From NCBI GenBank assembly GCA_902536765.1, contig CACAYM010000004.1, forward strand, positions 62,001-126,000: a DNA stretch of 64,000 nucleotides, in the 5' to 3' direction. This document shows, in pieces, positions 43,206 through 60,254 of this stretch. The first letter of the stretch is position 1. Each line of letters begins with the position of its first letter. The stretch comes from an uncultured Pelagibacteraceae bacterium (GTDB taxonomy: Bacteria > Pseudomonadota > Alphaproteobacteria > Pelagibacterales > Pelagibacteraceae). Made by a program: the position numbers and the translations under genes. The notes beneath the pieces were generated by a model. The model was not told the origin of the DNA. It saw only the letters and a list, made by a program, of their open reading frames with translations, and made no database searches.

Positions 43206-43698
43206 AGGTCTTACACAGTAAATTAAAAATTTGTAACTTTGTAACATTTTTTTTTGTAAAATAATTAATGAAATTAGTCTTATATTTTTTTATTTTTGGG
43301 CTTTTATTTAGATTTATTCCAATTCCTATTACTAAATATCTTTTTTTCTTTTTAAAAATAATTTCCTGTAAAATCCCACTTATTTTTTGTTGATTAATTA
43401 ATATATCATTAGGTTTTTTTATAACTACTTCATAGTCAGTAAATTTTTGTAAGCACTTCTGTACAATTAAACAGTTAATTTTCGTAATTTTATTTAAACT
43501 GGTTTGATTTTGTATCTCAAAAAAAACTGTCATAAATAAATTTCCTTTAAATGAAATCCATTTATTGCCTCTACGACCCTTCCCTTTAGTTTGAAATTCA
43601 GCTACAATAATTCCCTTTTCAACTCCTTTTCTTATATGTAAAATAGCTTTATCGTTAGTACTTTTAATTTTTTTATAATAAAACTTTTTTAAATTCAT
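43177..43698 (-). CDS. birA: Biotin-[acetyl-CoA-carboxylase] ligase, minimal form
   Basis: Attaches biotin to BCCP of acetyl-CoA carboxylase. The 173 residues start at the ATG 43696-43698, overlapping the nuoN stop (TGATG); a TTG one codon upstream is not needed. Catalytic-core motifs are present: KSTNDKA, the biotinyl-AMP loop KGKGRRGNKWIS (a GRGRRGR-type motif), the core KKPNDILINQQKISGILQEI, and VIGIGINLN. There is no N-terminal HTH, so it is not a repressor, and the C-terminal SH3-like domain of typical ligases (230 residues or more) is absent or reduced to a stub ending KKIGQFR. Confidence 0.9.
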   Translation of the reverse strand: MNLKKFYYKKIKSTNDKAILHIRKGVEKGIIVAEFQTKGKGRRGNKWISFKGNLFMTVFFEIQNQTSLNKITKINCLIVQKCLQKFTDYEVVIKKPNDILINQQKISGILQEIIFKKKKRYLVIGIGINLNKSPKIKKYKTNFINYFTKKNVTKLQIFNLLCKTYEKKIGQFR

Positions 43699-45116
43699 CA
43701 AACCAGATTAATTTTTGAAACGAAATTAATAAGGCTATTTGGATAAATAAAATAAATTAAAATTAAAATTGTTGTAATTATTAAAGATATTTTTAATCCT
43801 ATACTGTGATTTGTGTCATATTTCTCAACTTCACTATCAAAATATATCACTTTAATTAATCTTAAATAGTAAAATGCAGCGACAACAGTTGCTAATAAAC
43901 CTACAATTGCTAAGAAAAACATTGATTGCTCAATTACTGCCATAAAAATATAAAATTTAGCAAAAAATCCTGCTAATGGTGGTATTCCTGCCAGTGAAAA
44001 CAACACTATTAGAAGAGAAAACGATAATAATGGATGATTTTTTGATAATCCAGATAAATCATCTATGTTTTCGTAATATTTATCCTCACGTTTTAACATA
44101 AAAATACAACTGAAAAACGCAAGGTTCATTACTAAATATATTGAAATGTATGACACTGAACTTTGTATACCTTCGTTTGTGCCAGTTGTTAAACCTGCTA
44201 ATGCATAACCCATATGACTAATAGAACTATAAGCAATTAGTCTTTTTAAGTTTTTTTGACCTATAGCTGCGACAGCACCAAAAAGCATAGAGGCAATTGA
44301 TAAGAAAATAATTATTGTTTGCCATTGATCAATTAAATTTACAAATGGAGTGTACAAAAATCTAATAAAAACTGTTAATGCAGCAATTTTTGGCAAAATC
44401 GCAAAAAATAATGTAACTGATGTTGGTGATCCTTGGTAAACATCTGGAGCCCACATATGAAAAGGGACTGCAGAAATTTTAAATGCTAAGCCTACTAAAA
44501 TAAATACCATCCCAAATATTATACCTTGTGCTGATTGATCGTAATTAAATGAAATTTGCGAAAAATTAGTTGATGAGGAAAATCCATAGACTAAAGAACA
44601 ACCATATAAAAGTAAACCTGATGATAAAGCGCTAAGCACAAAATATTTTAAACCCGATTCTGAGGATAATACATTATCTCTATTAAAAGATGCTAATACA
44701 TATAAAGCTAAAGATTGTAATTCAAGTCCTATATAAAATACTATTAGATCATTTGAGCTTACCATCACCACCATTCCAAGAATGGAACTGAGAATTAATA
44801 TTGGATATTCTATATTATATATTTTAGTTACTTTGAGATACTGTGAAGAAGTTAACAAAACAAATAATGTTGAAATTATAATTAATATTTTTATAAAACT
44901 TGATAAATAATCTATTTTATAACTGTCATTAAATATTAAGATTTCTGGTCCAGATGGTACATTTAAAATCAAAGGAATTGATATTATTAATATTAATAAA
45001 GTTAAATTATATACTGTCGATGAGCTATTTTTTTTAAAAACGCCTAAAAGAAGTAAAAACATTAGACTTAAGGATAAAAATATTTCAGGTATTACATAAT
45101 ATATATCAGATATCAT
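43698..45116 (-). CDS. nuoN: NADH-quinone oxidoreductase subunit N
   Basis: Proton-pumping, antiporter-like membrane subunit of complex I. The 472 residues contain about 14 helices. Conserved features are the glutamate in FYIGLELQSLALYVLAS, lysine in GLAFKISAVPFHMWAPDVYQ, and KRLIAYSSISHMGYALAGL. It is the last nuo gene; its stop overlaps birA and its start overlaps nuoM (ATGA). Confidence 0.96.
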   Translation of the reverse strand: MISDIYYVIPEIFLSLSLMFLLLLGVFKKNSSSTVYNLTLLILIISIPLILNVPSGPEILIFNDSYKIDYLSSFIKILIIISTLFVLLTSSQYLKVTKIYNIEYPILILSSILGMVVMVSSNDLIVFYIGLELQSLALYVLASFNRDNVLSSESGLKYFVLSALSSGLLLYGCSLVYGFSSSTNFSQISFNYDQSAQGIIFGMVFILVGLAFKISAVPFHMWAPDVYQGSPTSVTLFFAILPKIAALTVFIRFLYTPFVNLIDQWQTIIIFLSIASMLFGAVAAIGQKNLKRLIAYSSISHMGYALAGLTTGTNEGIQSSVSYISIYLVMNLAFFSCIFMLKREDKYYENIDDLSGLSKNHPLLSFSLLIVLFSLAGIPPLAGFFAKFYIFMAVIEQSMFFLAIVGLLATVVAAFYYLRLIKVIYFDSEVEKYDTNHSIGLKISLIITTILILIYFIYPNSLINFVSKINLV

Positions 45117-46606
45117 TGGCTTTTAGCAGTGTATATTTCTAAATTTGCATTATAGTTATTTATTAAATTACTTACTGATACCTCTACTGTATTAATCAAA
45201 GGCTCAGGATAAAATCCAAAATATAAACTCGGTACCGCTAATGAAGTCAAAATAATAATTTCTGGTTTGTTTAAATCTACTAAATTTTTTAAATCTTTAT
45301 TTTTAAGTTCACCAAAAACAACTCTTTTATATAACCAAAGCATATATGCTGCGCCAAGTATCACTCCAAAACTTGCAACTACAGCGACCAAAAAATTATC
45401 TTTAAAAGCACCTATAAGTATTAAAAATTCTCCGATGAAGCCTGTTGTGCCTGGCAGACCAAGAGCTCCGAGTGTAAAAATCATTAAAACTATTGAATAT
45501 TTAGGCATAACATCAACTATTCCACCATATCTTTTAATCTCTCTAGTATGCATTCTTTCATAAATAACCCCTACGCACAAAAATAATGCAGCTGAAATTA
45601 TTCCATGACTTATCATTTGAAAAATACTTCCTTCCAAACCTTGTTGTGTCATAGTAAAAATTCCAAGCGTAACAAAACCCATGTGTGCAACCGAGGAATA
45701 TGCTATTAATTTTTTCATATCTTCCTGCATTAGCGCGACTAATGATGTATAAATAATTGCAATAAGACTTAATATATAAACTAAAGAGATAAAGTACTCC
45801 GAACCAATTGGAAATAAACCTATAGAAAATCTTATAAAGCCATATCCAGCCATTTTAAGAAGAATTGCTGCTAATAGAACCGAGCCAGCAGTTGGGGCTT
45901 CCACATGAGCATCTGGAAGCCATGTGTGAACTGGCCACATTGGTGTTTTAACAGCAAACGAGCTAAAAAAAGCTAACCACAAAATTTTTTGATATTTGGC
46001 ATCTATACCAATTTTGTAAAGTTTTTCAACATCTGTTGTTCCGGAGATCCAATAAATATAAATTATAGCAACAAGCATTAGAACTGAACCGAGCAGTGTA
46101 TATAGAAAAAATTTAAAAGCTGAATAAACTCTTCTTTCACCGCCCCATATTCCAATAATCAAAAACATAGGTATTAAACCTCCCTCAAAAAATAAATAAA
46201 AAACAACTAGATCTAAAGAGCAGAAAACACCAATCATTAAACTTTCCATTATCAATATGGCAATAAGAAAATCCTTCAGGCGATTTTTAATAGTACTATT
46301 TACTGATAATATGCACAAAGGAGTAATAAAAGTTGTAAGAACTACAAATAGGATTGATATACCATCTATTCCTACTTTATAATTTATGAAACCATAAATC
46401 CATTCTCTATTTTCAACAAATTGAAAAGATGATATTGAATTATCAAATTTATACCAAAGATAAATAGATAAGATTAAATTAATTAAACTGATGAAAATAG
46501 AAATATATTTATGACTATTATATTTTTCTGTTGATTTTGTAAAAAGAATAAATAGTGCTCCAATAGTTGGAATACATATTAGCAAAGATAAAATTGGTAT
46601 ATTCAT
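45113..46606 (-). CDS. nuoM: NADH-quinone oxidoreductase subunit M
   Basis: Antiporter-like proton-pumping subunit of complex I, 497 residues and about 14 helices. Motifs are VFYLFFEGGLIPMFLIIGIWGG (key glutamate), FAVKTPMWPVHTWLPDAHVE (key lysine), MKKLIAYSSVAHMGFVTLG and LPGTTGFIGEFLILIGAF. It overlaps nuoL by one base and nuoN by four. Confidence 0.97.
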   Translation of the reverse strand: MNIPILSLLICIPTIGALFILFTKSTEKYNSHKYISIFISLINLILSIYLWYKFDNSISSFQFVENREWIYGFINYKVGIDGISILFVVLTTFITPLCILSVNSTIKNRLKDFLIAILIMESLMIGVFCSLDLVVFYLFFEGGLIPMFLIIGIWGGERRVYSAFKFFLYTLLGSVLMLVAIIYIYWISGTTDVEKLYKIGIDAKYQKILWLAFFSSFAVKTPMWPVHTWLPDAHVEAPTAGSVLLAAILLKMAGYGFIRFSIGLFPIGSEYFISLVYILSLIAIIYTSLVALMQEDMKKLIAYSSVAHMGFVTLGIFTMTQQGLEGSIFQMISHGIISAALFLCVGVIYERMHTREIKRYGGIVDVMPKYSIVLMIFTLGALGLPGTTGFIGEFLILIGAFKDNFLVAVVASFGVILGAAYMLWLYKRVVFGELKNKDLKNLVDLNKPEIIILTSLAVPSLYFGFYPEPLINTVEVSVSNLINNYNANLEIYTAKSQ

Positions 46607-48519
46607 TATTTTATGATTAAGTAAGTTAATAATGCAGAAAAACCGACTAACATTATAAATGCATATTGATAGATAAATCCACTTTGGAACTTAACTGCTT
46701 TGTTAGATAGAATTTTTATTAAGTTCGATATACCATCTGGACCAAATCTATCAATTACAAGACCATCGATTTTTTTCCAAAAATAAAAACCAATTTTTTT
46801 TAAACTACTCACGAATAAAAATTCGTAAATTTCATCAAAGTACCATTTTTTTTTTAAAAAATTATATAAAGGCCGGTTTCCATCAACTATTAATGGAAGT
46901 AAATCTTTTCTCTTAACAAAAAAATAATAAGCAATAGGTATTGAAAATGTAACTAATGTAGGTGTTAAAAATATAAACCATTTAGGCGGATGTTCGCTAC
47001 TCAAAGGTTCTAGAAAAAAAATTGAAGAACTCCAGAACTGGTAACTTTTTTCAAAACCTATAAATAGATCTTTAAAAAAATAACCTGAAAAAATTGAGCC
47101 AATAGCCAGAATTACAAGAGGAATTGTCATAACCATTGGTGATTCTTGAATTTCATCGATTTTTATTGACCGATTATTAAAATCTCCATGAAAAGTTTTA
47201 AATATTAATCTCCAAGAGTAAATTGATGTTAACAAAGCAGTAAATATCCCTATTGCTGCCGCATAATATCCTAATGAACTATCCTTTAAGAAGGCAAACT
47301 CTATAATTGCATCTTTAGAGAAAAAACCAGACAATAAAGGGAAACCTGTAAGAGCAAGAGTACCAACTAACATTAATGTATAAGTAATTGGAAGTTTATT
47401 TTTTACTCCTCCCATATTATTAATATTTTGTTCTTCATGAAACGCGTGAATTACAGATCCCGCACCTAAAAATAGTAATGCCTTAAAAAATGCATGAGTA
47501 AATAAATGAAACATAGCAACGTTATATGCACCTACGCCAGTAGCAAAAAACATGTAGCCAAGTTGGCTGCAGGTTGAATAAGCGATAATTTTTTTTATAT
47601 CATCTTGTACCAATGCAACACTTCCTGCAAATATAGAAGTTGTCATTCCAATAATTGTTACAATCGATAATGCAAACTCAGAATATTCAAAAATTGGCGA
47701 ACATCTAACAACTAAAAATACTCCAGCTGTTACCATTGTAGCAGCATGAATTAATGCAGATACGGGAGTAGGTCCTTCCATAGCATCTGGCAGCCATGTG
47801 TGTAGAAAAAATTGAGCTGATTTACCCATTGCACCAATAAATAACAATATGCAAACAAGATCTATGCTATTAATTTTAATACCTAAAAAATTTAATTCAT
47901 CATTCGTGAACAAATTGATTTGTTGAAAAACTTCGTTATAATTTACTGTTCCAAATAAATAAAAGATTAAAAATATTCCTAATGCAAAACCAAAATCTCC
48001 AACTCTATTTACCAAAAAAGCTTTAATGGCTGCAGAGTTTGCAGAGTTTTTTTTAAACCAAAAACCAATTAAAAAATACGAGCAAAGACCGACACCTTCC
48101 CAACCAAAAAATAATTGCAAAAAATTATCAGAAGTTACTAGAGTTAACATTGCGAAAGTAAATAATGACAAATAAGCCATAAATCTTGGTTTGTGTGGAT
48201 CATGAGACATGTATCCAATTGAATAAATGTGCACTAATGAAGAAATTAAATTGACAACCACAAGCATAACAGCTGACAGCGCATCTATTTTGATAGACCA
48301 ATTCACTTCAAGGCTTCCAGAATTTATCCATTTGGCAATAATTAAATTATTTTCATATCCGTTTACAATTACATAATAGAAAATAATGATTGATAAAATT
48401 GCGCTTATAGTTGTAAACAAACAAGTAATATAATTACAAAATTTTTCTCCAATAATTTTGTTAAAAAAACCCGATATAATTGCTGCAACTAATGGTAAAA
48501 ATAAAATAAGATATTCCAC
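46606..48519 (-). CDS. nuoL: NADH-quinone oxidoreductase subunit L
   Basis: Largest proton-pumping subunit of complex I, with the long lateral helix at its C-terminus. The 637 residues have NFLQLFFGWEGVGLCSYFLI, GKSAQFFLHTWLPDAMEGPT, and KIIAYSTCSQLGYMFFATG. The start is GTG (48517-48519), one base after the nuoK stop, with a GAAAGG Shine-Dalgarno-like stretch inside the end of nuoK. The stop overlaps nuoM. Confidence 0.97.
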   Translation of the reverse strand: MEYLILFLPLVAAIISGFFNKIIGEKFCNYITCLFTTISAILSIIIFYYVIVNGYENNLIIAKWINSGSLEVNWSIKIDALSAVMLVVVNLISSLVHIYSIGYMSHDPHKPRFMAYLSLFTFAMLTLVTSDNFLQLFFGWEGVGLCSYFLIGFWFKKNSANSAAIKAFLVNRVGDFGFALGIFLIFYLFGTVNYNEVFQQINLFTNDELNFLGIKINSIDLVCILLFIGAMGKSAQFFLHTWLPDAMEGPTPVSALIHAATMVTAGVFLVVRCSPIFEYSEFALSIVTIIGMTTSIFAGSVALVQDDIKKIIAYSTCSQLGYMFFATGVGAYNVAMFHLFTHAFFKALLFLGAGSVIHAFHEEQNINNMGGVKNKLPITYTLMLVGTLALTGFPLLSGFFSKDAIIEFAFLKDSSLGYYAAAIGIFTALLTSIYSWRLIFKTFHGDFNNRSIKIDEIQESPMVMTIPLVILAIGSIFSGYFFKDLFIGFEKSYQFWSSSIFFLEPLSSEHPPKWFIFLTPTLVTFSIPIAYYFFVKRKDLLPLIVDGNRPLYNFLKKKWYFDEIYEFLFVSSLKKIGFYFWKKIDGLVIDRFGPDGISNLIKILSNKAVKFQSGFIYQYAFIMLVGFSALLTYLIIK

Positions 48520-48520
48520 A

Positions 48521-48832
48521 CTAACCTTTCAATTTCTCTATTTCCTCTACTCGTATCGTTCCAGAGTTTCTGTAGTAAACTACAATTATCGCAAGACCTA
48601 TTGCTGCTTCCGCTGCCGCAACCGTCAGAATAAATAGAGTAAAGATTTGTCCGCTTATATCATTCATATATATAGAAAATGATACAAGATTAATATTTAC
48701 AGCTAGAAGGATTAATTCGATGCTCATAAGAATCACAATTATATTTTTTCTATTTAGAAATATTCCTACTATTCCAATAAGAAAAATTATTGCACCTAAT
48801 GTCAGATAGTGACCTATTCCAATTTCAATCAT
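48521..48832 (-). CDS. nuoK: NADH-quinone oxidoreductase subunit K
   Basis: Small membrane subunit of complex I, 103 residues with three helices. Conserved acidic residues lie in [14 protein letters not shown] and the third helix [19 protein letters not shown], part of the central proton path. It overlaps nuoJ by 8 bases. Confidence 0.97.
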
Positions 48833-49448
48833 CTATTTTAACTCCTTGGTGAGATTTTACGTTTATAAGCGACACACCTTCATTTCTTTCTCTTGATAAT
48901 TGCTTAAAATAACTTTGCCTTTTTAAACCCTCCCTTTTTCTAAATGTAAGAACAATTGCACCAATCATAGCAACGAGTAATACCATTCCTGATAATTGGA
49001 AGAGGTGTATGTAATCAGTATATAAGACATTTCCAATTGAATGAGTATTAGTAACATCTGAAATAACTATTTTATTGGATAATTCGGGTTTATATTTCCA
49101 GCCACCAATTACAATGATTACCTCAAAAAAAATAATTATACTTACTAGAAGACCAATTGGTATATGTGCAGAATTAGTTGAGGATTTAAACCAAGTATTT
49201 TTTTGTTTTGCCACATTTAACATCATAACTACAAATAAAAATAAAACAGCAACAGCTCCAACATAAACAATGAGCATTATCATTCCTAAAAATTCAGCAC
49301 CTATCATTATAAATAAGCTTGAAATACTAATGAAATCTAAAATTAAAAAGAAAACTGAATGCACTGTATTTTTTGAAACAGTCACCATAATTGCAGACAC
49401 AACTGCAATAAATGAAAAAAAATAAAAAAAAAAGGCGTGTGCCATCAT
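48825..49448 (-). CDS. nuoJ: NADH-quinone oxidoreductase subunit J
   Basis: Membrane subunit of complex I, 207 residues with five helices; the third carries the pi-bulge region [21 protein letters not shown] typical of NuoJ/ND6. The C-terminal tail ([13 protein letters not shown] onwards) is cytosolic. Either of two adjacent methionine codons (49448 or 49442 region, MMAH) could start it; I keep the first. It follows nuoI by three bases. Confidence 0.95.
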
Positions 49449-49451
49449 TAA

Positions 49452-49937
49452 TTACCTATAAGGATTATCTGCCTTTATGTTTGCGGCTAAAACATTTTCC
49501 CATCTATCTCCATTTTCGAGTAATTTTTCCTTATTGTAATATAATTCTTCTCTTGTTTCTGTTGCGAATTCAAAATTTGGTCCTTGTACGATTGCATCTA
49601 CTGGGCATGACTCTTCACACAATCCGCAGTATATACATTTTAACATATCGATATCATATCTTGTGGTCTTTCTGCTACCATCATCTCTTTGTTCTGACTC
49701 TATTGTTATTGCCTGTGCAGGACATACAGCTTCGCACAATTTACATGCTATACATCTTTCTTCTCCATTTGGATATCTTCTTAAAGCATGCTCTCCTCTT
49801 GCTCTAGGGCTAATCTTACCTTTTTCAAAAGGATAATTTAGAGTTTTTTTATCTTTGAAAGCCTCTTTTATTGCAACTATTAAAGCAGTTAAGAAATCTA
49901 ACATGAATATAGTTTTTAATATTCTAGAAATTTTCAT
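49452..49937 (-). CDS. nuoI: NADH-quinone oxidoreductase subunit I
   Basis: Peripheral ferredoxin-like subunit with clusters N6a and N6b. The 161 residues have two CxxCxxCxxxCP motifs: [16 protein letters not shown] and [16 protein letters not shown]. An N-terminal amphipathic helix contacts the membrane arm. It lies three bases after nuoH. Confidence 0.97.
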
Positions 49938-49940
49938 AAA

Positions 49941-50939
49941 TTAAACCTTTGGCAATAAATCAAAATAAAGTAAAAAACCCGCAGTTAAAACTACCCATAT
50001 TAATGAAAAAGGTAAAAATATTTTCCAACCTAATTTCATAAGTTGATCATACCTATATCTTGGTACAATTGCTTTTACTAATGCAAAAAGAATAAATAAT
50101 AGAAGGATTTTAATTATAAACCACAACGCTGGTGGCACTATATCAAATGGATAAATATTAATTGGTGACAACCAACCACCTAAAAATAATATAGTCCCCA
50201 TCGCACACATAAGTAAAATATTTGCATACTCTCCTAACCAAAACATTGCATACATCATGCCTGAATATTCAGTTTGATAACCCGCAACTAATTCTGCTTC
50301 AGCCTCTGGTAAATCAAATGGAGGACGATTTGTCTCTGCTAATGCAGATATAAAAAAAATAACAAACATTGGAAATAAAGGTATAACAAACCATATTTTA
50401 TCTTGTGCCAAAACTATATCTGTAAGATTTAAAGATCCAACACAAAGTAGAACATTTATAATTATCACTCCAATAGATACTTCATATGAAACCATCTGTG
50501 CAGCAGATCTAATTGCACCTAAAAATGGATATTTTGAATTTGACGCCCAGCCACCCATGATAATACCGTAAACGCCTAAAGAAGAGATTGCGAATAAATA
50601 TAAAATCCCAACATTTATATTTGCTAAAACAAAATCTTCACTAAATGGAATAACAGCCCATGAAATTAAAGCTAATGTCATAGTTGTTATAGGAGCAAGT
50701 ATAAAAACTATTTTGTTTGAGCTAGCTGGTATAATAATTTCTTTAAAGATATATTTTAGAGCGTCTGCTAAAGATTGGAATAAACCAAATGGGCCAACAA
50801 CGTTTGGCCCTTTTCTTTTTTGAACAAATGCCCAAACTCTTCTGTCCAACCATACAATCATTGCGACTGCTGTTAACAACGGCAATAATAAGAATAAAAT
50901 TTTATATGTTTCCGAGATTAGTGTATAAAAATATTCCAT
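49941..50939 (-). CDS. nuoH: NADH-quinone oxidoreductase subunit H
   Basis: Membrane subunit forming much of the quinone chamber, 332 residues with eight helices. Conserved loops are [20 protein letters not shown] near the N-terminus and the acidic [20 protein letters not shown] with quinone-site glutamates, then [19 protein letters not shown] at the end. Confidence 0.97.
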
Positions 50940-50942
50940 ATA

Positions 50943-52979
50943 TTATCCATCAGTTCCTGTTTTCATAAGTTTTAGTAGACTATTTTTACATTCGGACATA
51001 GTTTTTGAGGCTCTTGCAATTACATTGCTATAATAATAATCCATTTCACTTATAGCAATTTTTTCATTTACAAATTCATTTTTTGACTTTTCCAAAGTAT
51101 TTGATCCTTTGTCTTTTTTTAATTTCAAATAATTAATCATGCTATCAATAAGTTCATTTTTATTTTTAAATAATTTTTTTCTTTTGATTAATTCGGACAA
51201 TTTATTTACAATTTCCCAATCCTCTAATGCATCGCCTGGTGGGTAGGAAGCTTTATACGTTTTTTGTAGTTTACCCTCTAGATTTGTATAGTGCGATTCT
51301 TTTTCTGTGTAGGCAGCTCCAGGTAAAATTAGATCCGACATTTCAGCACCTTTATCTCCATGCGTTCCTATATAAACAACGAATTCATTTTTTTTTGTAA
51401 AATTTAAATTGTCTTGTCCAAATAAAAATAAAATTTCATTTGTGTTATTTTGAATTTTATCTAAAGTTATATTCCTGCTACTTTCATTATTAATTAAATC
51501 TAAATCGTATGCACCAACAGTTGCTGAGTGATTTGAAATAACTCCTATTGAATTCCATTCATTGTTTATCTTACCATTTGATTTTAAAAAATTATTCAAT
51601 TGATCAAATAAAGTTTGAGCTGATTTTATTTTAAAAAAAGATTGACCGAGAATAACTATTGGTTTTTTAGCTGAAATTATTTTTTTACTTAATTGACTAT
51701 CTCCATCAACTAATGATTTAATTTCTGAGGTATCGTTTGGTAAAATTTTGTATGGATAAGTCAAATTTCCAACGTCTCCATAACTAAAAATTTGTAAATT
51801 ATTATTTAAATAAGATTTTCTTATTCTTGAATTTAAAATAGTTGCTTCAAACCTTGGATTGGCACCAATAATAACTACTAAATCACTCTGTTCTATTCCA
51901 TTTAAAGTTGGATTGAATATGTAGTTTGACCTATTGCTATTATCTACATATATATGATCAGACCTACAATCTAGGTTCGGCGATTTGATTGTTTTTTCAA
52001 AAAATTCTTTAACGATATACATTGTCTCCATATCTGTGAGATCACCTGTAAGTCCTGCAATTTTATCTGGTAAAACATTTGCAATTTTTTTCGTTAAAAT
52101 ATCGTAAGCCTCTTTCCATGTTATCTTTTTAAACTGATCATCAATTTTTACATAAGGTGTATCAAGTCTTTGATTTTTTAATCCATCGCATGCATATCTT
52201 GTTTTATCTGATATCCATTCTTCATTTATATCATCGTTGTTTCTAGGAAGTACTCTTTTCACTTCCCATCCATATGAATCAACTCTTATATTTGATCCAA
52301 CTGCATCCATCACATCAATTGTTTCGGTTTTTTTTAATTCCCAGGGTCTTGCCTCAAAAACGTACGGTTTTGATGTCAAAGCTCCAACAGGACAAAGATC
52401 TACAACATTAGCTGATAATTCTGACTCCATCGCTTTCTCTAGGTAAGTTGTGATTTGCATATCTTCACCTCGACCTATCGCACCTAGTTCTGGTACACCA
52501 GCAACTTCCGTAGCAAATCTAATACATCTAGTGCAATGTATACATCTAGTCATTTGAGTTTTTATAAGTGGGCCCATATACTTATCTGAAACATATCTTT
52601 TATTTTCTTTAAACCTTGATTTATCAAGACCATAATACATTGATTGATCTTGAAGATCGCATTCGCCTCCTTGGTCACAAACTGGACAGTCTAAAGGATG
52701 ATTAACAAGTAGAAATTCCATAACTCCTTTTCTTGCTTTTTCTACAAGTGGAGTATTAGTTTTAATATTCATTCCATCAGTGGCAGGCATCGCGCAAGAC
52801 GCTATAGGTTTAGGAGATTTTTCCATTTCAACTAGACACATCCTACAGTTTCCAGCAATTGATAGTCTTTCGTGGTAACAAAATCTTGGTATTTCAACAC
52901 CTGCAGCTTCGCACGCTTGAAGGACAGTTAATCCTTCTTCGACTTCAATTTCTTTGTCATTAATTTTTAATTTAAGCAT
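50943..52979 (-). CDS. nuoG: NADH-quinone oxidoreductase subunit G
   Basis: Large iron-sulfur subunit of the NADH-dehydrogenase arm, 678 residues. It has an N-terminal [2Fe-2S] ferredoxin domain ([18 protein letters not shown]), the His-Cys3 cluster [14 protein letters not shown], and a [4Fe-4S] motif [12 protein letters not shown] molybdopterin-oxidoreductase-like domain (about 220-620) follows, which has no cofactor in complex I. It overlaps nuoF by 8 bases. Confidence 0.97.
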
Positions 52980-54300
52980 TTTCTTTATCTAACAAGTGTT
53001 GATCTACTAAATATGGAATATTTTTATTTGTATTTACTAATGGATTGAAATTATTTCTTTTTATAATCTCTTTTTTGAAATGTCTTAAAAGACCTTGTAC
53101 TGGCCATGATGATCCTTCTCCGAATGCACATATTGTGTGTCCCTCAATTTGTTTAGTTACATCTTCTAACATTTCTATTTCTTCTCTTGATGCCTCATTA
53201 TTTTTCATTCTCTCTAACATTCTCCACATCCAACCAGACCCTTCTCTACAAGGAGTACATTGGCCGCAACTCTCATGCTTATAAAATCTTGCTATTCTCG
53301 CCATGCATGCAATAATATCTTGATCTTGGTTAATCACAATTATGCCAGCAGTACCAAGACCACTTTTCTGTTCAACCAAAGAGTCGAAATCCATTTTTAT
53401 TGTATCACACGTCTCTTTTGGCAACATTGGCATTGATGAACCACCAGGAATTACTGCTTTAAGATTTTCCCAACCACCTACTACTCCTCCCGCATGCTTT
53501 TCAATCAACTCTTTTAATGAAACCCCCATTTCCTCCTCAACATTACATGGTTTGTTCACGTTACCTGAAATACAAAAGATTTTAGTTCCAGTATTTTTTG
53601 GTCTGCCTAAGCCTGCAAACCATTTTGCGCCTTTTCTTAAAATTGTCGGAACAACTGCAATTGTCTCCACATTATTTACAATTGTTGGACAACCATACAA
53701 ACCAATTAATGCGGGGAATGGAGGTTTCAGTCTTGGTTGACCCTTGTTTCCCTCAATACTCTCTAATAAAGCTGTTTCTTCACCACAAATGTACGCACCA
53801 GCTCCATAATGTATATAAATATCTAAATCCCAACCAGTGCCACATGCGTTTTTACCAATTAATTTTTTTTCATATGCCTCGTTAATTGATTTTTGTAAAT
53901 TTTGTCCTTCATTGAAATATTCACCTCTTATATAAATATAACATTTGTGTGCACCCACTGCGTAAGATGCAATTAAACAACCCTCTATTAATTTTTGTGG
54001 TTCAAATCTAAGAATATCTCGGTCTTTACATGTGCCTGGTTCTGACTCATCTGCATTTATAACCAAGTAATGTGGCTTTGTTATTTCTTTTGGTGCAAAA
54101 GACCATTTTAATCCTGTAGGGAATCCTGCCCCACCTCTACCCCTGAGTTCAGAGGATTTAATTTCATCTATTATCCAGTTTTTACCTTTTGAACAAATTT
54201 CTTTTGTATCTACCCAATCTCCTCTCAACTTGGAAGACTCTACGTCAATACCGTTGTCACCGTATAAGTTCTGAAAAATTCTGTCTTTATCTTCAAGCAT
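52972..54300 (-). CDS. nuoF: NADH-quinone oxidoreductase subunit F
   Basis: NADH- and FMN-binding subunit with cluster N3, 442 residues. Motifs are the glycine-rich [16 protein letters not shown] (NADH), [16 protein letters not shown] (FMN), [19 protein letters not shown] and the cluster cysteines [12 protein letters not shown], with a fourth cysteine in HTICAFGEG. It overlaps both nuoE and nuoG by 8 bases. Confidence 0.98.
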
Positions 54301-54901
54301 TTTTTAAATTATTTAATGTGGTTCTTTCTGTCTCAGGAGCTGAATTAAATCTACCTTTATACGAGCCAGGTTTTGGCTGTTTACCATTTTTAGTCTCATC
54401 TATGATTTTTAATAGCTTATCTTTACTTAAATCTTCATAATAGTTTTCATTAATTTGTATCATTGGTGCATTTACACATGCACCTAGACATTCAACCTCA
54501 ACCCATGAACAGTTCCCATCTTCGGAAATTTCATTTTCATTTTTTGATATTTTTTCTTTACATGCCTCAACTAGTTTATATGCTCCTCTCAACATACATG
54601 GAGTTGTGGTGCATACCTGATAAAAATATTTTCCAACTGGGGTTAAATTATACATTGAGTAAAATGTTGCCACTTCATAAACTTTAATGTACGGCATATG
54701 TAATAGCTTTGCTATATACTTCATAGCTGCAAGTGGTATCCAATTTTGATTCTGATTTTGCACAAGATATAACAGTGACATAACTGCACTTTTTTGTTTT
54801 CCTTCTGGATATTTTGAAATAATTTCTTTTGAGATCTTTAAATTGTTTTCATTAAATTCAAATTTCTCAGGCTGATACTTTGATATTTTTTTAATACTCA
54901 T
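54293..54901 (-). CDS. nuoE: NADH-quinone oxidoreductase subunit E
   Basis: Thioredoxin-fold subunit with [2Fe-2S] cluster N1a, 202 residues. Cluster cysteines lie in [11 protein letters not shown] and [12 protein letters not shown]-terminal tail of about 35 residues ([20 protein letters not shown]) is longer than in E. coli and typical of alphaproteobacteria and mitochondria. Overlaps are four bases with nuoD and eight with nuoF. Confidence 0.96.
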
Positions 54902-56073
54902 CTGTCAATTTCTCCGAATACTATGTCTAACGACCCCAGTACCGCGGGGACGTCAGCTAACATGTGACCCTTAATTAAATAATCCATAGCCTGAAGATGC
55001 GAAAAACCAGGTGCTCTAATTTTACATTTATATGGCTTACTTGATCCATCTGAAATAAGGTATACACCAAACTCTCCTTTTGGTGCTTCTACAGCTGTAT
55101 AGATTTCATCTTTATCGACCCTATATCCTTCAGTAAACAATTTAAAGTGATGAATTAAAGCTTCCATAGACTCTTTCAATATTTTTTTTGGTGGCGCAGA
55201 AATTTTTCCATCTAATGCTTTTATTGGTCCTTTGGGCATATTTTTTAAACATTGATCAATTATTTTCACACTCTCTCTCATTTCTTCAACTCTGCATAAA
55301 TATCTATCATAACAATCTCCATTAGTTCCAACTGGGATATTAAACTCCATTTGTTCATAACAATCATATGGTTGTGATTTTCTCAAATCCCATGCAACAT
55401 TTGATCCTCTTAACATAACACCGGAAAAGGAATAATCGAGTGCATCTTGCTTACTCACTATTCCTATATCAACATTTCTCTGTTTAAAAATTCTGTTATC
55501 AGTCAGTAACGTTTCTAAATCATCAATAATTTTAGGAAATTTTTTAATAAAATCAGAAATATCATTATCTAAGCCCCTAGGTAAATCTTTGTGTACTCCT
55601 CCAGCTCTAAAATAATTAGCATGCAGTCTGGATCCTGAAACCCTCTCATAAAATGTCATTAGTGTTTCTCGTTCCTCGAATCCCCACAATGACGGTGTTA
55701 ATGCCCCGACATCCAAGGCCTGTGTTGTGATGTTTAAAATGTGACTCAATATCCTTCCTATTTCACAAAACAACACTCTTATATATTGTGCTCTAATAGG
55801 TACCTCTATTTTTAATATTTTTTCAATTGCTAAAGCAAAAGCATGTTCTTGATTCATCGGCGCAACATAATCAAGTCTGTCAAAATAAGGTACTGCTTGG
55901 GAATAAGTTTTATGTTCTATTAATTTTTCTGTTCCTCTATGTAACAAACCTATATGAGGATCAGCTTTCTCAACTACCTCTCCATCTAACTCCAATATTA
56001 ATCTCAAAACTCCATGAGCAGCAGGATGTTGAGGGCCAAAATTTAGATTAAGAGTTTTTGATTGTTTGGGCAT
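54898..56073 (-). CDS. nuoD: NADH-quinone oxidoreductase subunit D
   Basis: 49-kDa-type subunit forming the quinone site with NuoB, 391 residues. Motifs are [20 protein letters not shown] (quinone-site histidine loop), [36 protein letters not shown] and the C-terminal DIVFGEIDR. It is separate from nuoC, unlike the fused E. coli nuoCD. It follows nuoC by two bases. Confidence 0.98.
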
Positions 56074-56075
56074 TA

Positions 56076-56666
56076 TTAATCTTTAGTATTTTTGTTTATA
56101 TATTTTGTTCCTTCCCAAGGGCTTTCATAGTCAAAATTTCTGTAATTCTGTTCAAGTTTTACAGGCTCATAAATAACTTTCTTTTCATCTTCACTGTATC
56201 TAACTTCATTATGACCGGTTAAAGGAAAATCTTTTCTAAGCGGGTAACCCTCAAATCCATAATCTGTTAAAATTCTTCTTAGGTCAGGGTGATCTTTAAA
56301 TTTTATCCCATACATATCAAAAACTTCTCTTTCCATCCAATTTGCTGCTGGATATATTTTAGTAACTGTTGGTACTACTTCATCTTCATTTATGAAAGTT
56401 TCTAAAATTAACCTTGAATTAAATTCATGACTTAAAAATAAGTAAACTAATTTAAATCTTTTGTCGCTTTGTGGGTAGTCTACTGCTGTAATATCTATTA
56501 ATTGTTTAAATTTTGTACTCTGGTTATTTTTTATAAAAAGTATTACATCTATTAAATCTTCGCTATCAATGTTTAAATAAATTTGTGAATGTTTGATCTT
56601 AGAACTATTAATTTTTGTAGTAAGCTCAGAATTAATTTTTTTTTCTAAATTTTGCAATGTAACCAT
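56076..56666 (-). CDS. nuoC: NADH-quinone oxidoreductase subunit C
   Basis: 30-kDa-type structural subunit, 196 residues. The family signature [20 protein letters not shown] is followed by [20 protein letters not shown]. It lies four bases after nuoB and two before nuoD. Confidence 0.97.
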
Positions 56667-56670
56667 CTTT

Positions 56671-57192
56671 TTATCTTTCTAAAGATCCGTTGTTACGGAT
56701 TTTTTTTTGGAGTTGCATTATTCCATATAAAAGTGCCTCTGCAGAGGGCGGGCATCCAGGTACATAAATATCAACTGGTACAATCTTATCACATCCTCTT
56801 ACAACAGAATATGAATAATGGTAATAACCTCCACCATTTGCACAACTGCCCATTGAAATAACATATCTAGGTTCTGGCATTTGATCATAGACTTTTCTTA
56901 ATGCTGGAGCCATTTTGTTAGTCAATGTACCGGCAACTATCATAACATCTGATTGTCTTGGGGATCCACGAGGCGCTGCGCCAAATCTTTCCAAATCATA
57001 TCTTGGCATAGAAGTTTGCATCATCTCTACAGCACAACATGCAAGACCAAATGTCATCCAATGAAGTGAGCCTGTTCTTGCCCAATTAACTAAATTATCA
57101 AAAGATGTTGTGATAAAACCTTTGTCTGCAAAATCTTTCGCTAATTGTTTAAATTCGTCAGGTATCTGTTTTTCTTTTTCGCTGTTAATCAT
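56671..57192 (-). CDS. nuoB: NADH-quinone oxidoreductase subunit B
   Basis: PSST-type subunit with cluster N2, which reduces quinone. The 173 residues show [13 protein letters not shown] (adjacent cluster cysteines), [16 protein letters not shown] and [15 protein letters not shown]. It lies one base after nuoA. Confidence 0.98.
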
Positions 57193-57193
57193 T

Positions 57194-57562
57194 TTATTCC
57201 CAGTCTAGTGCACCTTTTTTCCATTCATATATAAATCCAACAGTTAATATAAAAAGAAAAACCAGCATTGAAAGATATCCATAAAAACCAATTGTTCCTA
57301 AAGAAATTGCCCAAGGAAAAAGAAAAGCTATCTCTAAGTCAAAAATAATAAATAAAATTGCAACTAAGTAAAAACGGACATCAAATTCCATTCTTGAATC
57401 ATTAAATGGCTCAAAGCCACACTCGTAAGCAGATAATTTTTCAGGGTCAGGATTTTTTGGAGAAAAAACAAAATTTAAAACAATAAACCCAATACTCAGT
57501 CCTAATGCTATAAACAAAAATAGCATTATCGGAAAATAATCTTTTAAAAATTCTGAACTCAT
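57194..57562 (-). CDS. nuoA: NADH-quinone oxidoreductase subunit A
   Basis: First gene of the complex I operon. The 122-residue subunit has three helices, with the conserved cysteine loop [20 protein letters not shown] between helices one and two and acidic residues in [20 protein letters not shown]-type helix two. About 98 bases separate it from tRNA-Asp; that gap contains a perfect Fur-like palindrome at 57639-57655 and a TACAAT hexamer at 57592-57597. No Shine-Dalgarno sequence is visible in the A/T-rich stretch before the ATG. Confidence 0.97.
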
Positions 57563-57638
57563 GGATAATATATATAGTTTTTTTTGCTGTAATTGTAAGA
57601 GATGTTTAGGTCACATTTCACCATATAATCCAGTTTAA

Positions 57639-57655
57639 TTGATAATAATTATCAA
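57639..57655. promoter_or_regulatory. Perfect 8-1-8 palindrome matching the Fur-box consensus upstream of nuoA
   Basis: TTGATAATAATTATCAA is perfectly self-complementary around its central base. It contains an exact match to the 7-1-7 Fur consensus TGATAAT-N-ATTATCA, and it also fits the looser TGA-N9-TCA iron-responsive (RirA) pattern. It lies six bases after the tRNA-Asp CCA end and 76 bases before the nuoA ATG. Iron control of the iron-sulfur-rich complex I would make sense, but the base composition makes A/T palindromes less rare than usual. Confidence 0.45.
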
Positions 57656-57660
57656 CTAAA

Positions 57661-57737
57661 TGGCGGGAGTGACGGGACTCGAACCCGCAGCCTTCCGCGT
57701 GACAGGCGGATGCTCTAACCAATTGAGCTACACCCCC
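57661..57737 (-). tRNA. tRNA-Asp (anticodon GTC)
   Basis: Complete cloverleaf on the minus strand. The acceptor stem is GGGGGTG/CACTCCC with one G-U pair; the anticodon stem TCCGC/GCGGA holds the loop CTGTCAC (anticodon GTC); the T loop is TTCGAGT. The discriminator is G and CCA is encoded at 57661-57663. Four bases after tRNA-Val, so the two probably share a precursor. Confidence 0.97.
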
Positions 57738-57741
57738 ATTT

Positions 57742-57817
57742 TGGTGGGCAGTAAAGGACTCGAACCTTTGACCCCCTCGGTGTAAACGAGATGCTCTACC
57801 AACTGAGCTAACCGCCC
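57742..57817 (-). tRNA. tRNA-Val (anticodon TAC)
   Basis: Complete cloverleaf on the minus strand. The acceptor stem is GGGCGGT/ACTGCCC; the anticodon stem TCTCG/CGAGG, closed by a T-G pair, holds the loop TTTACAC (anticodon TAC); the T loop is TTCGAGT. The discriminator is A and CCA is encoded at 57742-57744. It starts 49 bases after the lon stop; a weak TTTACT-N17-TATTAG promoter-like pair lies in that gap. Confidence 0.97.
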
Positions 57818-57866
57818 AAAATGTTCGGTACTAATACAACAAGGTTTAATTAAAGTAAATTACTAT

Positions 57867-60254
57867 TTATTGAATACTAGCTTGAGTTTCATCTTTTTTC
57901 TTTTCAGATGAAATTTTTTCAACTTCAACCCACTCCACTCTTTTTAACTCTTTCGTTAGTGCAATTTTTAAAACATCTTCAACCACCTCAACAGATGTAA
58001 TTTTAATATCTTCCTTCACTTTTTTTGGAATATCTGCAAGATCTTTCTCATTCTCTTTGGGTATCAATACTTCCTTTATACCTGCTCTATGAGCAGCTAA
58101 TAATTTTTCCTTTAATCCACCGATTGGTAATACTTGACCCGTTATTGTAACTTCGCCTGTCATAGCTAAATCTCTTCTTACTGATATATTAGTTATTGAA
58201 GATACTATTGAAGTTACCATAGCTATCCCAGCTGAGGGACCGTCCTTTGGTGTTGCCCCTTCCGGCACATGAATATGAAAATCTTTTTTCTCAAAGACTG
58301 GTGGTATAATTCCAAAGTCTAAACTCTTTGATCTAACGTATGATTTAGCAGCTTTTACTGACTCTTGCATCACATCGCCTAATTTTCCTGTAATTTGCAT
58401 TCTTCCCTTACCAGGCATATTAACAGTTTCTATTTTTAAAATCTCTCCTCCAAATTCTGTCCAAGCTAAACCTGTAACAATGCCTACTTTGTTATTGCTC
58501 TCTAGCTCTCCAAATTTAAACTTCTTCACACCTAAAAAATCGCTCAGATTTTTGTCATTAATTTTGACAGTGATCTCCTCAGAGTTTACAATTTTTTTTA
58601 CAACCTTTCTTGATACTTTAAATATTTCTCTCTCTAGATTTCTTACACCTGACTCTCTAGTATAATTTCTTATTATTTGTTTTAAGGTTCCATCTTTTAT
58701 TTCCATTTCACCTTCTTTAACCCCATTTTCTTTTATGGCTTTAGGTAAAAGAAATTTATCAGCAATGTTTATTTTTTCGTCCTCAGTATATCCAGGTATT
58801 CTTATTACCTCCATTCTGTCTAATAAAGGTGGTAAGATGTTTAGAGTATTAGCTGTTGTTACAAACATTACATCAGACAAGTCATAATCAACCTCTAAAT
58901 AATGATCATTAAAAGTAGTATTTTGCTCTGGATCTAGGGCCTCTAACAATGCTGAAGATGGATCTCCTCTATAATCATTTCCAACTTTGTCAATTTCATC
59001 TAATAAAAATAATGGATTTTTTGTACCAGCTTTTTTCATCATTTGTATTATCTTGCCTGGCAAAGAGCCGATGTAGGTTCTTCTATGTCCTCTAACCTCA
59101 GCCTCATCCCTGATGCCACCTAATGAAATTCTGACAAATTGTCTATTGGTAGCTTTGGCAATTGATTTTCCAAGTGAAGTTTTTCCAACACCTGGAGGGC
59201 CAACTAAACATAAAATAGGACCTTTAATTTTTTCCATTCTTTTTTGAACTGCTAAAAATTCAATAATTCTCTCTTTCACTTTATCCAAACCAAAATGATC
59301 CTCATCTAAAATTTTTAGAGCCTTGTTTAAATCTATGTCAACTTTATCTTTTTTATGCCATGGTAAATCTATCATCCAATCTAAATAATTTCTCACAACT
59401 GTTGCCTCAGCAGACATGGGACTCATGCTTCTTAATTTTTTAAGCTCAGACATACATTTTTTTTGAACTTCTTTTGGCATTTTTGCTTTTAAGATAGCTT
59501 TGTTTAAATTTGACGTCTCGTCTTTTCCATCCTCAATTTCACCCAATTCTTTTTGAATAGCTTTAAGTTGTTCATTTAAATAATACTCTCTTTGGGTTTT
59601 TTCCATCTGTGTTTTAACTCTACCACGAATTCTTTTTTCAACTCCTATTATACTGGTTTCATTATCCATTATTTTGATAACAGCGTTCAGTCTTTTTTTT
59701 ACGTCTGCAGTCTCAAACAGTTGCTGTTTTTCAGAAATAGTAGTATTTAAATGAGATGCAATATTATCAGCAATCTTGGAAGCATCCTTGAGATCTTTGA
59801 TGCTTGATATAGTTTCATTTGAAATCTTCTTATTTATTGACGAAAGTTTTTCAAGTCTTTTTAAAGCAGTTCCAGCTAAAGTAATTAAATCATCATTTTT
59901 ATCATAAACGTCATTAAAATACTCAAAACTACAATTTATAAATTTTTCTTCGTCTTTAAAATCAGTTATCTTCACTCTCTTAAATCCTTCCACTAAAACT
60001 TTAACGGTTCCGTCAGGTAATTTTAAGAGTTGTAAAATGTTACTTTCACAACCGTATGTAAAAATATCGTTTTTTTTAGGATCATCAACTTCAGAATTTT
60101 TTTGTGTTACTAGTATTAGTTTTTTCCCAGATTGCATTACTTCATTTAATGCAGAGATCGATTTATCTCTTCCCACAAAAAGAGGTATTACCATACTTGG
60201 AAATACTACAATATCTCGTAATGGTAATAGTGGTAAATTATGTTTAATTTCCAT
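57867..60254 (-). CDS. lon: ATP-dependent protease Lon
   Basis: Cytosolic AAA+ serine protease degrading misfolded and regulatory proteins. The 795 residues comprise an N-terminal substrate domain (about 7-200), a coiled region, an AAA+ module with Walker A GPPGVGKT (352-359) and Walker [11 protein letters not shown], and a protease domain with the catalytic dyad S674 (PKDGPSAG) and K717 ([10 protein letters not shown]). It lies 63 bases after clpX. The HU gene hupB that follows lon in many proteobacteria is not present; tRNA-Val comes next. Confidence 0.97.

Follow-up and report, generated by a model that had tools for sequence, protein, structure and literature searches.

The window, that is, the whole 64-kb stretch of DNA analysed here, carries on one strand 14 head-to-tail reading frames, nuoA to nuoN, which from nuoA (57562) down to nuoN (43698) overlap or are separated by only a few bases. 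The gene letters were given by the order and the reading of these frames, and only NuoA was used in a search. Between nuoA and a tRNA-Asp gene upstream of it on the same strand lies the perfect 17-base palindrome TTGATAATAATTATCAA (57639-57655), which stands five bases from the tRNA gene and 76 bases from the nuoA ATG (Table 1). Its core, TGATAAT-N-ATTATCA (57640-57654), matches the 7-1-7 inverted repeat TGATAATNATTATCA exactly. Since the nuo frames are nearly gapless, the palindrome region is the only sizeable gap upstream of the 14 nuo genes. The preliminary description of this DNA had pointed to a 17-base perfect palindrome with that core and to the interval between tRNA-Asp and nuoA as the sole sizeable gap, and both statements are borne out by the sequence and by the frame coordinates.

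Table 1. Features of the nuoA upstream region and of the operon behind it (window coordinates).
Feature	Position	Strand	Basis or remark
Putative Fur-type operator: 7-1-7 palindrome (nuo strand, TGATAATTATTATCA) extended by one flanking pair	57639..57655	-	Sequence, rarity, conservation
tRNA-Asp, upstream neighbour, same strand as nuo	57661..57737	-	
Conserved GTGAC element of the nuoA promoter	57610..57614	-	G of GTGAC is 40 bases past base 1 of the 15-mer
Putative nuoA promoter -10 region, TATATATA	57569..57576	-	
nuoA, leading gene of the operon under putative control	57194..57562	-	
nuoA-nuoN operon, 14 head-to-tail frames	43698..57562	-	Gene letters by order and reading

Exact matches to this repeat are scarce, with one place in the window and two in the 1.14-Mb assembly, in which the reversed control pattern has no exact place. 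When the 98-base intergenic region of the window was shuffled, none of 200 shuffles reached an exact match. With up to three mismatches allowed, 25 matches in the window stand against a chance mean of 22.98, so that only near-perfect matches are informative. At up to two mismatches the genome has an excess (53 places versus 30 for the reversed control), and single matches at this level would be mostly noise. The frequency of equal matches genome-wide had been named in the preliminary description as a check on its reading; they are rare (two exact), and the places of the strict motif mostly precede iron genes, as set out below.

Of the 586 relatives matched by the NuoA search, 80 loci were kept, 56 of which were used as SAR11 (L006-L059, L065 and L070). 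Combined with a genus sample and the window, and with identical regions counted once, they yielded 83 distinct upstream regions; locus L227, which has no tRNA-Asp plus nuoA pair, was left out. A box with at most two mismatches was found upstream of nuoA in 50 of the 83 regions (no mismatch in 8, one in 31 and two in 11), while 60 sets of shuffled copies of the same regions contained 0.42 boxes on average and 2 at most. The palindrome does not, therefore, drift freely among SAR11, the behaviour that had been proposed at the outset as evidence against an operator. No box was found at this threshold in the other 33 regions, among them that of G061, the only genus-sample genome listed as 100% complete and as a single contig. 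The other 24 of the 80 NuoA loci also lack a box at up to two mismatches; tRNA-Asp lies upstream of nuoA in ten of them, and four (L064, L069, L072 and L074) are titled Pelagibacteraceae, with NuoA identities of 67-69%. Counted over all 80 NuoA loci and the window, the box is present in 34 of 81.

Positions 3, 5, 6, 11, 13 and 15 are invariant in all 50 nuoA boxes, positions 1, 2, 10 and 14 vary in one or two of them, and the main changes fall at positions 4 (T/G), 7 (T/C), 9 (A/G) and 12 (A, else C, T or G) and at the centre; selection of the boxes by mismatch number favours invariance as such, not where the changes fall. The sfuC boxes, too, show T/G at position 4 and A/C at position 12. In a nuoA-B DNA tree, 8 of 10 rows of one deep clade and 26 of 47 rows of the other have the nuoA box, and its distribution takes 9 changes as against 18.2 with shuffled labels, none of 500 shuffles being as low. 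Given its presence on both sides of the deepest split and these 9 changes, the nuoA box is probably old, to judge from the sequences compared, and has probably been lost or exchanged several times. A Fur gene is kept in several box-less genomes (L009, L011 and L022), so the nuoA box is dispensable, and box loss shows no obvious match with Fur absence in a comparison made without a statistic among genomes many of which are incomplete. In the sister nuoA-B pairs L029/L058 and L024/L039 the upstream regions are quite different (short versus long leader), the box being absent from one member and present in the other in L029/L058, and these pairs look as if the promoter region had recombined.

In 51 genomes the degenerate motif TGAKAAYNRTTMTCA had 126 matches and its reversed pattern, used as a control, had 12; in 61 genomes of the genus the figures were 129 and 13. 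Among 49 motif loci, picked among the matches listed and with most of the known nuoA places left out, the neighbours fit iron genes in 40 cases and do not fit in nine. The fitting neighbours are sfuC (20), an iscR/hydrolase pair (6), nuoA (5), a gene for a 59-60-aa CxxC protein (5), hemB (3) and a katG-like gene (1). In this last case the motif lies inside the end of an irr-like gene and katG was named by reading; for IscR and HemB, one representative each was checked against NCBIfam. Seven of the nine unfitting motifs fall inside other reading frames and two have other neighbours.

The Fe(III)-transporter gene sfuC, whose product has iron-binding proteins as its best solved relatives, was also fetched by protein. 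The SfuC query matched 45 of the 61 genus genomes and 30 loci were kept, L250 being without a readable sfuC start; a box with at most one mismatch to the degenerate motif precedes the gene in all 29 readable regions, 25 of them with none. In a wider set the count is 59 of 59, which includes loci chosen by the motif and is not a frequency. The sfuC boxes (up to one mismatch) lie 13-76 bases before the ATG, start codons having been chosen by script, and often two of them occur at an offset of 16 bases. In G061, from which the strict motif is absent, a one-mismatch box stands before sfuC and none before nuoA in an assembly given as 100% complete. Transcripts of sfu and suf rise in iron-limited P. 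ubique (PMC2864753).

Within the genome of the window itself, the strict motif has three places, namely nuoA, hemB and the intergenic group beside the gene of the 59-aa protein. At the last of these (G000:C2:32282-32377, or L099:8283-8378), four box-like sites, one of them strict, separate the 59-aa CxxC-protein gene from a divergent 147-aa gene without a Pfam match. The 59-aa protein gave only a sub-threshold match, to a double zinc ribbon, and its gene is a recurrent neighbour of the motif in relatives. At hemB (G000:C13:3970-3984, L105) the box overlaps or touches the start codon, as it does in L144, L166 and L174. Neither an sfuC match, with the query that was positive in most genus genomes, nor an Rrf2/IscR match was found in this assembly of 92.8% completeness, and the two misses may mean that the genes are truly absent or that they lie in the 7% not assembled. 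The link to iron in this genome hence rests on its relatives together with its own hemB and 59-aa-gene sites.

Three Fur-family genes of the same genome exceed the Pfam FUR cut-off. The first encodes a 141-aa protein (around G000:C1:57147-57521) whose best solved relatives are named Fur (E 4.7e-48) and which scores 109.1 of 146 bits against the NCBIfam Fur model, under the curated cut-off; the gene beside it we take to be miaB. The second is nearest to Irr models and adjoins katG, and the third is nearest to the Zur model and adjoins a ZnuA relative. None of the three reaches a curated NCBIfam cut-off, so the naming relies on the best match and on adjoining genes. The Fur orthologue is, as far as sequence comparison goes, the natural candidate reader of the nuoA box. 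An Rrf2/RirA protein was rejected as the reader, since the genome gave no Rrf2 match while 13 of 14 control genomes were positive.

Downstream of the box, GTGAC occurs in 73 of the 83 SAR11 nuoA upstream regions, whether the box is present or not; no GTGAC was found in eight regions (L051, L053-L057, L059 and L070). In 69 of the 73 regions a TATAWW hexamer stands 35-41 bases beyond the G of GTGAC when counted without a tie-break (73 of 73 at 36-39 bases with a tie-break towards offset 38); shuffles gave 4.6 such regions on average and 11 at most. This spacing holds whether the nuoA ATG follows within 10 bases or after more than 100, and from the arrangement of GTGAC and TATAWW we infer the nuoA transcription start. 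The distance from the box start to the G of GTGAC could be measured in 43 of the 50 boxes and is 39-40 bases in 22, 51-53 in 17 and 63 in 2, with single cases of 30 and of 32 bases, the latter reading GTGAA. The box centre thereby falls at about -81 from the inferred start in most regions and at about -72, -94 or -105 in others. These classes lie about one helix turn apart (R 0.84 at 10.5 bp and p ~0.05 for four classes; R 0.80 and p 0.03 with L052 added), a phasing that is suggestive only, as it rests on four or five classes, and a period of 11 fits slightly better than 10.5.

Several further traits of this promoter region were observed. The GTGAC element is part of GTGAC-N6/7-CAC, about 37 bases before the -10-like hexamer and also present in box-less regions; in L012 it is symmetric, GTGAC-N6-GTCAC, and the element looks like the site of a second regulator. 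In most regions the nuoA ATG comes no more than 10 bases after the end of the putative -10 (57562-57576 in the window), so that the nuo transcript may have almost no leader or none at all, whereas one SAR11 group has nuoA leaders of more than 100 bases. In one deep SAR11 clade (L052-L057, L059 and L070) a hairpin of the form CCTCAA...TTGAGG was seen by eye shortly before the nuoA ATG, with compensating changes, also by eye, in L059 (CCTTGA...TCAAGG).

Given the 7-1-7 form, the deep conservation before nuoA, the motif shared with sfuC and the encoded Fur orthologue, the palindrome is very probably a functional Fur operator, as far as sequence can tell. The Fur-operator reading first offered for this site is supported in particular by the conservation of the degenerate motif, the iron-gene neighbours and the Fur orthologue. 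That such an operator would act on nuo is also highly likely. Complex I contains many iron-sulfur clusters. When iron is sufficient, iron-loaded Fur would bind the box and, from a position upstream of the putative core promoter, would activate nuoA-N, so that complex I would be made at its full rate only with iron available; at the uptake gene sfuC the same box would repress. It is the location of the box upstream of the putative core promoter that makes activation the most likely mode of action. At sfuC, only 8 of 59 regions have a TTGAC in the 60 bases preceding the first box, and the core promoter is unplaced in most relatives, which weakens the contrast with a repressor position, and we accordingly regard activation as the sign of this action with moderate confidence. 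The reading as a whole, a Fur operator for iron-dependent activation of nuoA-N, appears likely. A more elaborate version, which we offer tentatively, would be a composite iron-activated nuoA promoter with Fur as a class I-like activator on one helix face (at about -72, -81, -94 or -105) and GTGAC-N6/7-CAC as a second element at about -49, its gate having been lost repeatedly, so that SAR11 ecotypes would differ in how respiration is tied to iron.

Comparable arrangements exist outside SAR11. Neisseria is a betaproteobacterium in which, as with the putative SAR11 start, a box lies upstream of the nuoA start. For Neisseria meningitidis, a review places the Fur box of nuoA, an activated gene, some 100 bp ahead of the transcription start (PMC3788343). 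In Caulobacter crescentus, Fur binds the nuoA-N regulatory region in gel shifts and activates it in response to iron, with part of nuo reduced both under iron limitation and in a fur mutant (PMC6120978, PMC3751524). Caulobacter is likewise an alphaproteobacterium with Fur at nuoA-N, but both binding and response have been tested there, whereas the SAR11 site is known from its sequence only. A Fur box has also been predicted upstream of nuoA-N in Gluconacetobacter diazotrophicus (PMC9368920), a prediction only, with a 19-bp motif in another lineage, and that paper is mixed on the direction of the nuo response.

The same operator could instead repress, with holo-Fur lowering nuo expression at high iron or blocking read-through from the tRNA unit. 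Fur is best known as a repressor, and a protein sitting on the box, with the tRNA genes on one side and nuoA on the other, could form a roadblock. This is nevertheless rather unlikely: the box starts 30-63 bases before GTGAC, which itself lies about 37 bases before the -10-like hexamer, the Fur boxes upstream of nuoA in Neisseria and Caulobacter activate in the accounts cited above, and shutting down an iron-sulfur enzyme at high iron would make little sense.

Another metal regulator might read the site, be it a Mur-like, manganese-responsive form of the same orthologue or an Irr, Zur or Rrf2 protein. The Fur orthologue is about equally close to the structures 5fd5/5fd6, which we take to be rhizobial Mur, and 4ray, presumably Magnetospirillum Fur, and the genome also encodes the Irr and Zur relatives. 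We consider such a reader unlikely, since the motif has iron genes as neighbours and P. ubique adjusts sfu and suf to iron (PMC2864753), while the genome is without an Rrf2 match and its Zur relative adjoins the ZnuA relative. Moreover, Irr and Zur recognise motifs that differ from that of Fur.

The best of the explanations unrelated to iron is a hairpin in the trailer of tRNA-Asp, serving as a terminator or as a 3' processing signal. The proximity of the palindrome to the tRNA gene would suit such a role, and the window transcript folds into a 15-pair stem that is longer than the palindrome (-11.9 kcal/mol, z -4.76). Among the six sequences folded (five with a box and one without), L044 likewise gave a good fold (z -3.40), but L010 and L015 showed no advantage over shuffles and the pairing in L054 lies away from the box; the box-less L029 gave no stem. 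No intrinsic terminator was found between 57400 and 57900 (0 terminator-like sites), and an Rfam search of 57100-58000 with E up to 1 returned the two tRNAs and two matches under gathering scores only. Pairing is not maintained by the substitutions either, as the 4/12 pair is altered in 21 of 50 boxes and the 7/9 pair in 25 of 50, never to another Watson-Crick pair, although a G-U wobble would remain in 3 of the 21 and 14 of the 25 altered pairs, respectively. In L053 the box persists in a 3.4-kb locus that contains no tRNA, and the motif is also found in front of sfuC and other protein-coding genes. A terminator or tRNA trailer was rejected on the missing terminator, the lack of Watson-Crick compensation and the box kept without a tRNA in L053, and this origin appears very improbable. 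A chance palindrome is hardly credible and was rejected. The AT-rich genome and the chance rate of loose window matches might speak for it; against it stand the exactness, the rarity (two exact places genome-wide, the reversed pattern having none) and the conservation of the box before nuoA (50 of 83 regions versus at most 2 in shuffled sets).

Fur boxes as such have been described in SAR11. Hogle et al. (2016, PMC4771312) reported, in the main text, 15-bp 7-1-7 Fur boxes before Fe(III) ABC transporters and FTR1 permeases, which are the same 15-base inverted repeat as the nuoA box, and the words nuo, NADH and hemB are absent from that main text. For P. ubique HTCC1062, Steindler et al. (PMC3090418) reported that a classic Fur box was not found. 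The P. ubique study of iron limitation, on a strain that may be box-less, mentions neither nuo nor NADH in its main text, so that no nuo response is reported there. Titles, the beginnings of abstracts, and main texts containing both "SAR11" and "Fur box" held no report of a Fur site at SAR11 nuo. The initial remark that no such site had been described in this group thus holds for nuo in the literature searched, but not for uptake genes, whose SAR11 Fur boxes are published in the main text of PMC4771312. What is known, then, is Fur at nuo elsewhere and a Fur box at SAR11 uptake genes; their combination at SAR11 nuo was not reported in the literature searched.

SAR11 bacteria are among the most abundant cells in the sea and live with picomolar iron. 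If iron-dependent activation of nuoA-N by Fur holds true, iron supply would set the respiratory capacity of SAR11 as well as its uptake, and the patchy loss of the box would provide natural box-plus and box-minus lineages for comparison.
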